Below are positions 46,132-51,457 of a stretch of DNA of 64,000 bases, piece after piece. Under the pieces are notes generated by a model. That model ran no database searches and was not told the origin of the DNA. It saw nothing but the letters and a program-made list of their open reading frames with translations. Source of the stretch: Methanocella arvoryzae MRE50 (GTDB lineage: Archaea > Halobacteriota > Methanocellia > Methanocellales > Methanocellaceae); the NCBI RefSeq assembly GCF_000063445.1, contig NC_009464.1:186001-250000 (forward strand). Reading direction: 5' to 3'. Made by a program: the position numbers and the translations under genes. Each line of letters begins with the position of its first letter. Positions within the stretch are counted from its first letter, which is position 1.

Positions 46132-46195
46132 TGACATGCTATGTCATGCCAATTGTCATGCTATGACATGTCAACTGTCATGCTATAGCATAGCA
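46132..46195. promoter_or_regulatory. Three phased palindromic operators upstream of lldP
   Basis: TGACATGCTATGTCA (46132), TGTCATGCTATGACA (46154) and TGTCATGCTATAGCA (46176) begin exactly 22 bases apart, so they face the same side of the DNA helix. Each has TGnCAT-GCT-ATGnCA-like arms (the third closes as ATGCTATAGCAT). They lie 41-104 bases upstream of the lldP ATG and 170 bases upstream of the divergent small ORF at 46369. Confidence 0.7.
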
Positions 46196-46368
46196 ATACT
46201 CATTGCCTGTATATAAAAATTATGTTACGATGTCCCGGTAGAAGAGCCGTAAAGTGCATGAATTACCTGTTGAAGACGACATAGTGCCACAGAAATGTAA
46301 AATAACGGCTTTTGCGGCGGGATAAATATATCATCAGAATATAATAAATGTAATTTGTAAAAGCCCAG

Positions 46369-46405: not shown

Positions 46406-47044
46406 ATTTCGGAGGCACAGGATCTGGTGACGATTACGGTCGGCGGCAGGAAAGTAAAGGTACCTGAAACGACGAGCACAGGGGAAATACGTACTATCGT
46501 GGGACTGGAAAGAGGCCATATACTCGCCAGATCAACGGGCAGTGCGAACCAGATTGTGCACGGCGAGATCAAGGTACGTGAGGGAGACGCATTTGTCGTC
46601 GGCCGATCGTTTACCAAAGGCTCGATGGACGATTCCCGCCTTACAAAAGAGCTGGAACGTCTATCCTCCTTTTTTGACCTTGAAGTGGACAGGACGCTCA
46701 ACTGGGTTCTGATCCGGGGCTACGGGCTGCCGGAAGGCTACAACAGGAACAGTACGGACATACTGTTCAACGTGAGCGGCTTTCCGTACTTACCCCCGGC
46801 AAGCATTTTCGGGGTATACATGGAAACCGGCCTCGAATATAAGAATCAGCGGCTTCCGAACTACTACGAGGCGCTCACCCGCAACATGTTTGGGCGAACC
46901 TGGGCATGGTTTTGCACCGGCCACATGTCATGGAATTCGACAAAGGATGACCTGCTGACATTTCTGGTCACCCTGGACCTGATGCTGGCCGACCCGCTCA
47001 ACGAGTCCGCAGGAGAGACTCATATTGACATCAGAAACCCGTAA
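46406..47044 (+). CDS. Ubiquitin-like domain fused to an E2-like (Prok-E2_E type) domain
   Basis: 212 residues from ATT 46406, which follows a near-perfect SD (GGAGGTGATC, 46394-46403). The first ordinary start is GTG 46427; a second GGAGG (46411-46415) could serve it, so the start is uncertain. Residues about 8-70 are a Multi-ubiquitin-like beta-grasp ('VTITVGGRKVKVPETTSTGE', 'KVREGDAFVVGR'). Residues 95-205 are E2-like: 'GYGLPEGYNRNSTDILFNV', 'SGFPYLPPASIFGVYM', 'GRTWAWFCTGHMSWN', with Cys170 as a candidate active-site residue. The fused beta-grasp has no free Gly-Gly end. Coding overlaps the next gene by 20 bases. Confidence 0.82.
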   Translation: MSEAQDLVTITVGGRKVKVPETTSTGEIRTIVGLERGHILARSTGSANQIVHGEIKVREGDAFVVGRSFTKGSMDDSRLTKELERLSSFFDLEVDRTLNWVLIRGYGLPEGYNRNSTDILFNVSGFPYLPPASIFGVYMETGLEYKNQRLPNYYEALTRNMFGRTWAWFCTGHMSWNSTKDDLLTFLVTLDLMLADPLNESAGETHIDIRNP

Positions 47045-48500
47045 GTTCCGCGTGGCCACCTCCAAAAAGCAGCGTAAGAGTGGTAAAAGTTTCAAGATCA
47101 TCTTCCCGGCCAGCATCTATGACCAGATCACAGGACAGTTTAAAGCGATGGAGGCACAAAAACTCGAAGGCTATGCTCTGGCCATGTGCGGGCTAAAAAC
47201 GGACCTGTCAGATAATTCTCATACGTACCTGGTAAAAAAGGTCTTTATTCCGGAAAAGGGAAACCTGATCGAGCATTCCAGCGTGAGCGTAACGCCTTCA
47301 GGCGAGTACCTTGAGAAAGTGCTCGCCGAGGCAGGGGAGAGCAATAGCGCGATTATAGAAATCCACACCCACGTGGATGCACCGGCACCAAGCTTTTCAT
47401 CGGTCGATCTCGAAAACGGGATCGATAACGGGCGGTTCCTGAAATCGTGCAGGATACGGTTCGGCATGATTGTAATGGGGTCCGAAGGGCTGTCAGCGCT
47501 GGAATACGACGGGGATTCCGATTCCCTCAGAGTGCCGGAAAAAGCCTCGATAGCGGTCATGACCAGGCACGGCCTAAAAACTGTTTTGCCGGTACAAAAA
47601 CCCGGGGCAACCGAACCACTGGCAGAAGTATATGACAGACAGGTGAGGCTCTGGGGAAGTCAGAGCCAGCGCAGGATCGAAGCGACGACTGCAGGCATAG
47701 TCGGCCTCGGAGGTACTGGTTCCGTAGTCTTGCAGATTCTGTCAAGGATAGGCGTGAAAAAGTTCGTCCTCGTAGACCCTGACGATATTGAGGAATCGAA
47801 CCTCAGCAGGCTTCCTTACGCGATAAGTACAGACGTGGGGAAAAAGAAAGTAAAGGTAGCCGCAGCCCACCTGAAGAAGGTGAACAAGAACGCGGAAATT
47901 ACATCTCTGGCAGGCCCTGTTGCCGACTTTAAGGATAAGCTGAAAGCCTGTACAGTGATCTTCGGCTGTGTTGATAATGATCTGGCGCGCCTCACGCTGA
48001 ACGAGATCTCGTTGCGCTATTTCATACCTTTGATAGATACAGGCACAGAGATATTCGTAACTGAGGGTAGCCTGGACGAGATGGGCGGTCAGGTACGCGT
48101 AGTAATCCCATCAGTCACAGGCTGCCTGGAATGCGGAGGCTTAATCGACAAGGAACAGGCGGCAATGAGCATGCTCAGCCAGGAAGAAAGAAATATCCTG
48201 GCTGCCGCCGGTTATGTCAGGGGCACGGATTTGACGCCTGCTCCCGCCGTGATGACACTGAACGCCATAATAGCATCACTGGCAGTACAGGAATTTGTAG
48301 ACATGATGACAGAAAGGGGCCGGCCTGATTACAGCTACCTGATATACAGCGGGAGATCCCCGATCATCGACAGACTGAGCCTCGAAAGGTGCGATACCTG
48401 CCCCAACTGCGGAAGCAGGGGCATACTTGGCGCCGGGGAAGAAAAAAAGCAAAGCAGGGCATGTTTAAAGATGATAAGCGAAGAGCCCGGGACGCCATGA
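47025..48500 (+). CDS. JAMM protease fused to an E1-like ubiquitin-activating domain
   Basis: 491 residues from TTG 47025, SD AGGAG 9 bases upstream. JAB/JAMM isopeptidase (about 20-165): Glu in 'LEGYALAMCG' and 'EIHTHVDAPAPSFSSVD' (HxH...SxxD; one residue longer than usual before the Ser). E1/ThiF domain (about 200-440): 'GIVGLGGTGSVV', 'LVDPDDIEESNLSR', 'FGCVDNDLARL' (adenylation residues D, N, R, D), and two CxxC zinc pairs (CLEC, and CDTC/CPNC near the end). The likely job is to adenylate a ubiquitin-like tail and to cleave isopeptide bonds. Second gene of a two-gene module. Confidence 0.88.
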   Translation: MTSETRKFRVATSKKQRKSGKSFKIIFPASIYDQITGQFKAMEAQKLEGYALAMCGLKTDLSDNSHTYLVKKVFIPEKGNLIEHSSVSVTPSGEYLEKVLAEAGESNSAIIEIHTHVDAPAPSFSSVDLENGIDNGRFLKSCRIRFGMIVMGSEGLSALEYDGDSDSLRVPEKASIAVMTRHGLKTVLPVQKPGATEPLAEVYDRQVRLWGSQSQRRIEATTAGIVGLGGTGSVVLQILSRIGVKKFVLVDPDDIEESNLSRLPYAISTDVGKKKVKVAAAHLKKVNKNAEITSLAGPVADFKDKLKACTVIFGCVDNDLARLTLNEISLRYFIPLIDTGTEIFVTEGSLDEMGGQVRVVIPSVTGCLECGGLIDKEQAAMSMLSQEERNILAAAGYVRGTDLTPAPAVMTLNAIIASLAVQEFVDMMTERGRPDYSYLIYSGRSPIIDRLSLERCDTCPNCGSRGILGAGEEKKQSRACLKMISEEPGTP

Positions 48501-48556: not shown

Positions 48557-49027
48557 ATGAAAGAAGACAGGCTGTTATCAAAAATCGAAAGAGACAACTA
48601 TATCATCAGACTGCAGAAGGAATTTGCATCCACGGGTGCGACAATACCTGATAGTGTAGCGATAGATGGAAAAACGATCAGGCTCAGAACATACGTTTTC
48701 GAAATACTCAAGAAAAAGGGCAACCTCACGCCCGAAGAGCAGGAAGAAGCAGACAGGACTGCAGCCCTGCTCCAGAAAAAACGCAGGGAACTGGTAAGCA
48801 CAATAGCTACCGCACAGGATATGACACAGCGGGAAGCTGAAGAGCTGTTTAATACTATACTGGGAATAGACAGGGCACTGGATACCCTTTATAGAATCCA
48901 CGAGCCCAGGTCATCGGCCCAGGAAGAAGCCAAAAAAGCCAAAGTTCAGGACGGCCGAAGGTGGCTCAACCTGGTGAAAAAAATCTATTCCAGGGGCGAC
49001 GAAAAGGCGCCGAGGGAAAGATCATGA
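48557..49027 (+). CDS. DUF5788-like protein
   Basis: 156 residues, charged and helical, with 'EEQEEADRTAALLQKKRRELV' and 'EAEELFNTILGIDRALDTL' as long helices (part shown). No membrane segment or catalytic motif. I take it as the archaeal DUF5788 family with moderate confidence. The ATG overlaps no gene, but the next gene starts inside its stop (ATGA), so those two are coupled. It begins 56 bases after the E1-JAMM gene, so it might belong to the same transcript, though it has an AT-rich possible promoter near 48515. Confidence 0.68.
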   Translation: MKEDRLLSKIERDNYIIRLQKEFASTGATIPDSVAIDGKTIRLRTYVFEILKKKGNLTPEEQEEADRTAALLQKKRRELVSTIATAQDMTQREAEELFNTILGIDRALDTLYRIHEPRSSAQEEAKKAKVQDGRRWLNLVKKIYSRGDEKAPRERS

Positions 49028-49365: not shown

Positions 49366-49424
49366 GCACCGGACTACTAAAAATATTTATATGCTTATAA
49401 TTGATACATGGTAGCGAGTACAAT

Positions 49425-49730
49425 ATGGAAATATGCAACAAATGTGGATTACCGCAAGATATTTGCATCTGCGAAGACCTTGCCAAGGAAGGACAAAAGA
49501 TCTATATTTCGACGAACACCAGGCGTTTTAAGAAACTGACCACAGTGATCGACGGTATAGATAATAAAAACGTGAACATAAAAGAACTGGCTCAGAAGCT
49601 GAAGACCAAGTTCGCCTGCGGCGGCACCATCAAGGATGGCCGGATCGAGCTACAGGGCGATCACAGGGAAGGTGTCAGGAATCTTCTGATCAGCTACGGG
49701 TTCTCCAAAGACCTCATCGAGATCAAATAA
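49425..49730 (+). CDS. Translation initiation factor aIF1 (SUI1 family)
   Basis: 101 residues from ATG 49425. N-terminal Zn-binding cluster 'CNKCGLPQDICICED' (C-x2-C...C-x-C), then the SUI1 core 'KKLTTVIDGID', 'LAQKLKTKFACGGTIKDGRIELQGDHRE' (part) and 'LISYGFSKDLIEI'. aIF1 sits on the small subunit and helps reject wrong start codons. This gives a twist to the non-standard starts seen elsewhere in this window. TATA-like TATTTATATG (49382-49391) is upstream. Confidence 0.94.
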   Translation: MEICNKCGLPQDICICEDLAKEGQKIYISTNTRRFKKLTTVIDGIDNKNVNIKELAQKLKTKFACGGTIKDGRIELQGDHREGVRNLLISYGFSKDLIEIK

Positions 49731-50704: not shown

Positions 50705-50941
50705 ATGGTGAACAAACAAAAAGGAGAGATGAGCGTCAGCGAAGCCGGCCGCAAGGGCGGAGAGACGACCAAGGAAAGATACGGAGAAGGCTTCTACGAG
50801 GAGATCGGCAGGAAAGGCGGCCGAAGAGGCGGAGAGACGACCAAGGAAAGATACGGAGAAGGCTTTTACGAAGACATCGGCCATAGGGGCGGACAGAAGG
50901 TCAAAGAGCTAATCGAGAGGGGAAAGAGCGCCCGAAAATAA
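50705..50941 (+). CDS. KGG-repeat stress protein with two repeats
   Basis: 78 residues. The unit 'KGGETTKERYGEGFYEEIGR' appears twice in a row with few changes, framed by 'MSVSEAGR' and the family end 'GGQKVKELIERGKSARK'. Same family as 8660 and 51194. ATG 50705 has a good SD. The two copies of the repeat are almost identical at DNA level, suggesting recent internal duplication. Expected role: stress tolerance, inferred from family. Confidence 0.82.
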   Translation: MVNKQKGEMSVSEAGRKGGETTKERYGEGFYEEIGRKGGRRGGETTKERYGEGFYEDIGHRGGQKVKELIERGKSARK

Positions 50942-51193
50942 TGGTGCTTGCTTAGCCGACCGGTAACAACCATTTTAATTTTATATGATATACTAAATCA
51001 TGAACTAGAAAAATATGTAGAAATAAATCATAATTAGCCAGAAAAGCATCAGATTAAGCCATATACAGCTGATTTTACCCAACAGATGTAATAAATCTCA
51101 CAACGGGCAATTTTATACGTTATAATATCGGACAAGATTAAAAATGTATGAAATTTTAGAGATAATATGGCATAGAGTGGGGTGTTTTTAGAT
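50942..51193. other. AT-rich intergenic region between two KGG genes
   Basis: No gene. Contains AT-rich stretches (for example TTTTATATGATATACT near 50980 and TTTTATACGTTATAATATCGG near 51115) that could be the promoter of the second KGG gene. Confidence 0.4.
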
Positions 51194-51457
51194 ATGGCTG
51201 AAAAGAAAACAGAGATGACAGTAAGAGAAGCCGGCCACAAGGGCGGGTCCACAACCAAGGAACGTTATGGGGAAGGCTTCTACGAAGAAATTGGCAAGAA
51301 AGGAGGCAAGATAGGCGGCAAGAAAGGTGGCACGACTACTAAAGAGCGCTATGGAGAAGGCTTCTACGAAGAGATTGGCAAAAAGGGCGGTCAGAAAGTC
51401 CGTGAGCTGATCCAGCGTGGCAAGGCCGCGATGTCCGAACGCAGCAGCCGCAAATGA
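51194..51457 (+). CDS. KGG-repeat stress protein
   Basis: 87 residues from ATG 51194; a TTG 12 bases upstream is less likely, and the N-terminus 'MAEKKTEMTVREAG' matches the neighbour. Repeat unit 'KGGSTTKERYGEGFYEEIG' occurs twice, joined by a spacer 'KKGGKIGGKKGGT'. Ends with 'GGQKVRELIQRGKAAMSE'. With 50705 it forms a tandem pair that adjoins the insertion element at 51617. Confidence 0.82.
   Translation: MAEKKTEMTVREAGHKGGSTTKERYGEGFYEEIGKKGGKIGGKKGGTTTKERYGEGFYEEIGKKGGQKVRELIQRGKAAMSERSSRK

Follow-up and report, generated by a model that had tools for sequence, protein, structure and literature searches.

A two-gene Ubl–E2 and JAMM–E1 cassette related to bacterial Bub operons on the chromosome of Methanocella arvoryzae

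The locus and its neighbours

The DNA considered here (the window) is a stretch of 64,000 nucleotides corresponding to positions 186001–250000 of the single-contig, 3,179,916-base genome of Methanocella arvoryzae MRE50, termed G000 below; G001, G002 and G003 are related Methanocellaceae genomes. At 46406–48500 of the window, an earlier note made from the sequence alone had placed two overlapping genes, and both open reading frames are found there. The first encodes a ubiquitin-like (Ubl) domain joined to an E2 domain, and the second a JAMM domain joined to an E1 domain. The features of the locus are listed below by position in the window, where (+) denotes the forward strand and a slash within a sequence marks a domain junction.

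46427–47044 (+): gene 1, Ubl–E2, GTG start, 205 aa; alternative in-frame ATT at 46406
46427–46621 (+): beta-grasp Ubl domain of gene 1, with Gly65 (GTG numbering) as its last residue
46619–46621 (+): Gly65 codon (FTKG/SMDD), where JAMM is predicted to cut and the mature Ubl to end
46622–47044 (+): E2-fold domain of gene 1 (Prok-E2_E, PF14462)
46913–46915 (+): Cys163 (Cys170 in ATT numbering) in WAWFCTGHMSW, at the E2 nucleophile column
47025–48500 (+): gene 2, JAMM–E1 (JAB–E1), 491 aa
47025–47044 (+): overlap of genes 1 and 2, 20 nt
47025–47600 (+): JAMM (JAB1/MPN) protease domain of gene 2, with E48, H114, H116, S125 and D128
47622–48500 (+): E1/ThiF adenylation domain of gene 2, with DRQVR, GLGGTG, DPDDIEESNLSR, K and D, and the zinc pairs CLEC and CPNC
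48557–49027 (+): DUF5788 protein, downstream neighbour (PF19101, E 4.6e-37)
49401–49730 (+): aIF1 (SUI1), neighbour (PF01253, E 1.4e-21)

The ATT codon at 46406 has a good Shine–Dalgarno-like stretch, and the residues encoded ahead of the GTG (46406–46427) look like the N-termini of relatives (EAQ-LV), so that the ATT is possibly the true start of gene 1. A survey of related genomes for the same gene pair returned orthologous pairs in identical order in two (G001 and G002) and a fused remnant in a third (G003). Together with the conserved residues described below, and a dN far below a saturated dS, these orthologues indicate that the gene pair is not a product of chance.

The surroundings of the locus are conserved as well, the neighbouring genes of the relatives having been identified by sequence likeness. 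The order Ubl–E2, JAB–E1, DUF5788, CxxCxxCC protein, SUI1/aIF1 is shared by G000, G001 and G002, the last of which carries an inserted E2-like gene. DUF5788 stands in the corresponding place in G001, G002 and G003 (with the one additional gene intervening in G002), and aIF1 lies two genes past it in G001 and G002; thus DUF5788 and the zinc-cluster protein follow the locus in four Methanocellaceae, with aIF1 then seen in three. This stable chromosomal position near aIF1, outside any defence island, is new here and suggests a cellular or stress role more than mobile defence.

Two further observations concern the surrounding DNA. Three direct repeats with 22-nt spacing (TGTCATGCTATGACATGTCAA-like and partly palindromic) lie at 46132–46203, between a lactate permease gene and the Ubl–E2 gene, and form a possible operator array. 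Downstream, two small KGG-repeat, LEA_5-like proteins of stress type are encoded at 50705–50941 and 51182–51457, and a gene resembling the second of these is also present in G001.

Domains, catalytic residues and the Ubl–E2 junction

Gene 2 matches ThiF (PF00899) with an E-value of 1.5e-43 and Prok-JAB weakly (E 0.036); its best solved match is Citrobacter BubCD (E 1.7e-18), with which the JAB and E1 portions are both co-linear. The JAMM zinc site is complete (Glu, HxH, SxxD), as is the set of E1 residues (Arg, GxGGxG, D..D..NL.R, Lys and Asp, together with the zinc CxxC pairs), and all of these are invariant in an alignment of eight archaeal and bacterial proteins. The intact adenylation motifs and two CxxC pairs that the earlier note had read from gene 2 are therefore present and shared by its relatives. 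A search for an E1 catalytic Cys conserved across the family found none. The SAMP E1 model scores gene 2 at 56, against a cut-off of 450.

Gene 1 matches Prok-E2_E at E 5e-6 (26.7 bits, cut-off 25), or at 1.9e-6 when the E2 domain is taken alone. Each of the six archaeal proteins in alignment A3 matches the same family, and two of the six weakly match the UEV model too (E 0.0078). In profile–profile comparison, the gene 1 E2 matches seven E2s from multiubiquitin-type operons (six bacterial and one haloarchaeal) at 96.9% probability, E 1.8e-10. Citrobacter BubB is matched at 0.0034 with the single protein and at 5.4e-5 with profile A3. AlphaFold models of both proteins, built from two-sequence alignments, reached pLDDT values of 36 and 33, so that the fold assignments rest on sequence profiles. 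On this footing the beta-grasp/E2 reading of gene 1 holds, with the E2 above the Pfam cut-off, and the assignment of Ubl, E2, JAMM and E1 domains is upheld by Pfam or profile matches and by conserved active-site residues. The gene 1 E2 has no clear HPN motif, and no second E2 was found in the M. arvoryzae genome.

The Cys that had been proposed as the candidate active site, Cys163, is present and conserved among the Methanocella relatives. When 27 E2 domains are aligned by profile, its column contains Cys in nine archaeal E2s (three of Methanocella type, five from haloarchaea and the extra E2 of G002), Ser in every one of the 12 bacterial E2s and in four from haloarchaea, and an Asp or a Glu in the remaining two; the survey is small, and the profile was built from the same 27 sequences that were aligned. 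A separate alignment of A3 to BubB places the same Cys opposite the Ser of WSRH. The motif can be written [S/C]-x-H, with Methanocella having G for H. The occurrence of Cys at the nucleophile column in Methanocella and one haloarchaeal group, and of Ser in the sampled bacterial relatives, is new here. Bub involves serine oxyester intermediates. The extra E2 of G002 is a diverged E2-like gene of 138 aa (L007:10692-11108) between JAB–E1 and DUF5788; it has LCTW at the Cys position, aligns with the gene 1 protein at 30% identity and lacks a Pfam E2 match.

The N-terminal residues of gene 1, about 65 in number, have a beta-grasp-like look. Their description as Multi-ubiquitin type draws weak support overall: hhalign profile–profile comparison with eleven Ubls from multiubiquitin-type operons gives 92% probability, E 5.7e-7, over 40 columns in the N-terminal half, but there is no Pfam match to Multi_ubiq (PF14452) even at E<=10, the Ubl is single where polyUbls usually contain two to three copies, and the tail spacing is ThiS/MoaD-like. 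Single-Ubl operons annotated as multiubiquitin do occur. A Multi_ubiq match elsewhere in the M. arvoryzae genome (E 0.86) was rejected, as it contains two stops. The separate Ubls found in the same genome are ThiS/MoaD-family proteins only, one of which adjoins its own ThiF. The earlier note had seen no separate ubiquitin-like protein nearby, and the genome as a whole likewise yielded no separate partner Ubl, which would have counted against its reading.

The junction between Ubl and E2 reads VREGDAFVVGRSFTKG followed by SMDD, and the Ubl tail is therefore K-G and not G-G. Gly65 lies 12 residues past the Gly of a 'GD' turn; the same spacing, measured to the second Gly of the terminal GG, is found in three of three ThiS/MoaD-family proteins of the genome, one of which continues for four residues after GG. 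The KG at the end of the Ubl is invariant in four Methanocellaceae, and the fusion point in G003 also follows a Gly (FTKG/MQKFRV). Similar junctions occur in relatives, both split and fused. In C. koseri, several Ubls and the E2 are encoded in one ORF, and Gly230 is where the deposited BubA chain ends and the BubB chain starts; in Pseudanabaena galeata a separate Ubl ends in TTTEG, and the fused protein of Pseudanabaena PCC 7367 has TTTEG/QNAI; two haloarchaeal single-Ubl–E2 fusions have AYG/ST and GYG/GT.

The GD-to-Gly spacing, the invariant KG and the Gly junctions of split and fused relatives suggest that gene 1 most likely encodes a precursor, with Gly65 placed where the mature forms of related Ubls end. 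The earlier note had held that the Ubl has no free C-terminal Gly and, unless JAMM releases it, may act in cis, which is poorly supported given this placement of Gly65 at the junction. In one MAFFT alignment Gly53 appears as the counterpart of the bacterial terminal Gly; we set this pairing aside as a matter of judgement, since under it the last strand has no partner and the spacing from GD to Gly departs from that of the ThiS/MoaD proteins of the same genome.

Distribution of relatives and loss of the E2 in one lineage

Relatives of gene 1 are present in four of the 148 genomes searched, M. arvoryzae included, and E2s of the A3 type in nine of 292 haloarchaea; a scan of genome contigs returned a Methanocella MAG only. 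One further match, in genome G101, was dropped as chance, being a 54-aa frame among housekeeping genes. By tblastn, relatives of JAB–E1 are found on 112 plasmid records, with 26–32% identity among the matches listed, and viral contigs contain ThiF-like matches, of which the best is 32% identical over the E1 part. The JAB–E1 tree places Methanocella near the haloarchaeal Cys group, weakly (68/79).

In the loci examined the order is Ubl (multiubiquitin), E2 and JAB–E1, often followed by DUF6527 and sometimes by a phosphotransferase. The Ubls and E2 form one ORF in C. koseri, Pseudanabaena PCC 7367, Methylomagnum and Nitratireductor. The compact fused form is nothing out of the ordinary: multiUbl–E2 proteins stand beside JAB–E1 fusions in several bacteria, and single-Ubl–E2 proteins are found in two haloarchaea. 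The fused two-gene architecture is thus not new and is known from bacterial Bub/multiubiquitin operons. In two haloarchaeal loci (L015 and L026), two tandem Ubl–E2 pairs precede one JAB–E1, and one E2 has the Cys while the other, within the same context, lacks it, an arrangement reminiscent of Ubc13–Mms2-type partnerships between an active and an inactive E2.

The relative in G003 has taken a different course. Its locus is an intact ORF of 483 aa (L008:7498-8949), in which the E2 is gone and the Ubl is joined straight to JAMM and a degenerate E1; the E1 lacks GxGGxG, the NLxR segment and the crossover loop, while the JAMM residues are intact. For the E1 portion, identity is 0.395 between G003 and G002 versus 0.596 between G000 and G002; for the JAB portion the corresponding values are 0.511 and 0.522. 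In the tree, G003 is sister to G002 on a long branch. The loss of E2 and E1 motifs with fusion of the Ubl to an intact JAMM is new here. Conjugation may not be the sole role of the system, since in this relative Ubl and JAMM have outlasted the E2 and the E1 motifs.

Proposed pathway and comparison with known systems

From these sequence features we consider it probable that the cassette is a self-contained, reversible Ubl-conjugation system of the Bub family, with a precursor that is cut by JAMM after Gly65. We infer the steps of cleavage, activation, thioester formation and conjugation as follows. A cut by the JAMM domain of gene 2 just behind Gly65 would split the gene 1 product into an E2 and a free Ubl whose last residue is Gly. 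Adenylation of Gly65 by the E1 domain, at the expense of ATP, would follow, and the activated Ubl would pass to Cys163 of the E2 and on to target proteins, from which JAMM could take it off again. Cleavage of this kind has a precedent in an archaeal JAMM that cuts pro-ubiquitin and a linear ubiquitin–GFP fusion (PMC5654768).

Several features of the locus could be read otherwise. The retention of the fusion in G000, G001 and G002, the lack of a separate Bub-type Ubl in the M. arvoryzae genome and the joining of the Ubl to a JAMM–E1 remnant in G003 would fit a Ubl–E2 protein that stays uncleaved, its Ubl acting in cis or docking E1 and JAMM, with no conjugation. We think this improbable: Gly65 is kept at the mature C-terminal position, a Gly junction is common to split and fused relatives, and the intact E1 adenylation site would be purposeless. 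Rather less likely is a sulfur carrier, in which adenylation of the Ubl by the E1 would lead to a thiocarboxylate (on the pattern of the ThiS, MoaD or Urm1 pathways) and the E2-like domain would be a sulfur-transfer or sulfur-binding module. The spacing of the Ubl tail is that of ThiS/MoaD, and the E1 is ThiF/MoeB-like with zinc pairs; however, neither a rhodanese nor a cofactor-biosynthesis gene occurs among the scanned neighbours, ThiS/MoaD proteins and two further ThiF proteins are already encoded in the genome (one such pair side by side), and the combination of JAMM with an E2 fold whose Cys is conserved suits conjugation better.

The chemistry could also be that of the conjugation model but be directed against viruses, as with CBASS Cap2/Cap3 or Bil, a reading to which we give the same slim chance as the sulfur carrier. 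CBASS and Bil make use of related E1/E2/JAB sets, PADLOC E1–E2 models partly match the E1 domain of gene 2, and relatives are carried on many plasmids. The constant chromosomal place of the locus in four Methanocellaceae argues mildly against defence, no nucleotide cyclase or CD-NTase was found among the scanned neighbours, and phage protection by Bub has not been demonstrated (PMC13373217).

A bolder proposal, to which we give somewhat short of an even chance, is that one E2 family switched its nucleophile between Ser (bacterial Bub and some haloarchaea) and Cys (Methanocella and one haloarchaeal group), so that pathways of close kinship may use oxyester or thioester chemistry, and that the Ubl–JAMM protein of G003 with its dead E1 points to a conjugation-free role. 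The Ser/Cys split in a single aligned column offers a clean natural pair for the question of nucleophile switching, and the E2-deleted lineage is a test case for Ubl and JAMM acting alone. A cassette of two proteins is also small, so that reconstitution is practical.

The kinship with bacterial Ubl clusters that the earlier note had pointed to is borne out, the best solved relatives being Citrobacter BubB and BubCD. The Bub system of Citrobacter (PDB 9d59, 9ea4, 9ea8, 9eae and 9eav) shares with the Methanocella cassette the Ubl, an E2 of Prok-E2_E type, the JAMM–E1 fusion and the gene order, and in both the Ubl and E2 can share one polypeptide with Gly at the junction. They differ in that the cassette described here has one Ubl instead of several, Cys for Ser in the E2, a chromosomal location in an archaeal host and no DUF6527, which was not found in the M. 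arvoryzae genome and is not annotated in the haloarchaeal loci examined. The polyUbl operons of row 6e in Iyer, Burroughs and Aravind (2006, PMC1779556) likewise combine a polyUbl, sometimes fused to an E2-like domain, with a JAB–E1 fusion; these were bacterial only, and their E2 was judged inactive for want of a Cys, whereas the Methanocella E2 has one.

Half of the architecture had very probably been known already in this organism. Makarova and Koonin (2010, PMC2948915) listed a Jab–E1 fusion in 'methanogen RC1', and RC-I stands for M. arvoryzae MRE50 in the NCBI taxonomy, so that gene 2 is very probably the Jab–E1 of that survey. In the available part of the survey, E2 is stated to be undetected in archaea and the adjoining Ubl–E2 gene goes unmentioned. 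A full set of Ubl, E1, E2 and JAMM thus lies on the chromosome of a methanogen whose Jab–E1 was listed when archaea were supposed to be without E2.

Other systems are more distant in their make-up. CBASS joins E2 to E1 in Cap2/Cap3 loci with a CD-NTase, whereas here E1 is joined to JAMM and E2 to Ubl; the SAMP system uses a UbaA-type E1 and a SAMP of ThiS/MoaD fold without E2, whereas the Methanocella cassette has an E2. The ubiquitin system of Caldiarchaeum (PMC5654768) resembles it in having archaeal E1 and E2 and a Ubl precursor matured by a JAMM, but it has a eukaryote-like GG ubiquitin, separate genes, a RING E3 and E2 and E1 of other families. Haloarchaeal loci (Natrinema, Natribaculum, Salinigranum and others) share the Cys-containing E2 (C-I-H/E) and JAB–E1, and two other haloarchaea share the single Ubl–E2 fusion; the haloarchaeal Cys group, however, encodes its Ubl and E2 in separate genes and has three of its loci on plasmids, and some loci have a second Ubl–E2 pair without the Cys. 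Taken with these relatives, the cassette appears to be an archaeal branch of the bacterial Bub/multiubiquitin family, and a variant rather than a typical Bub, since its E2 nucleophile column holds Cys and not Ser.
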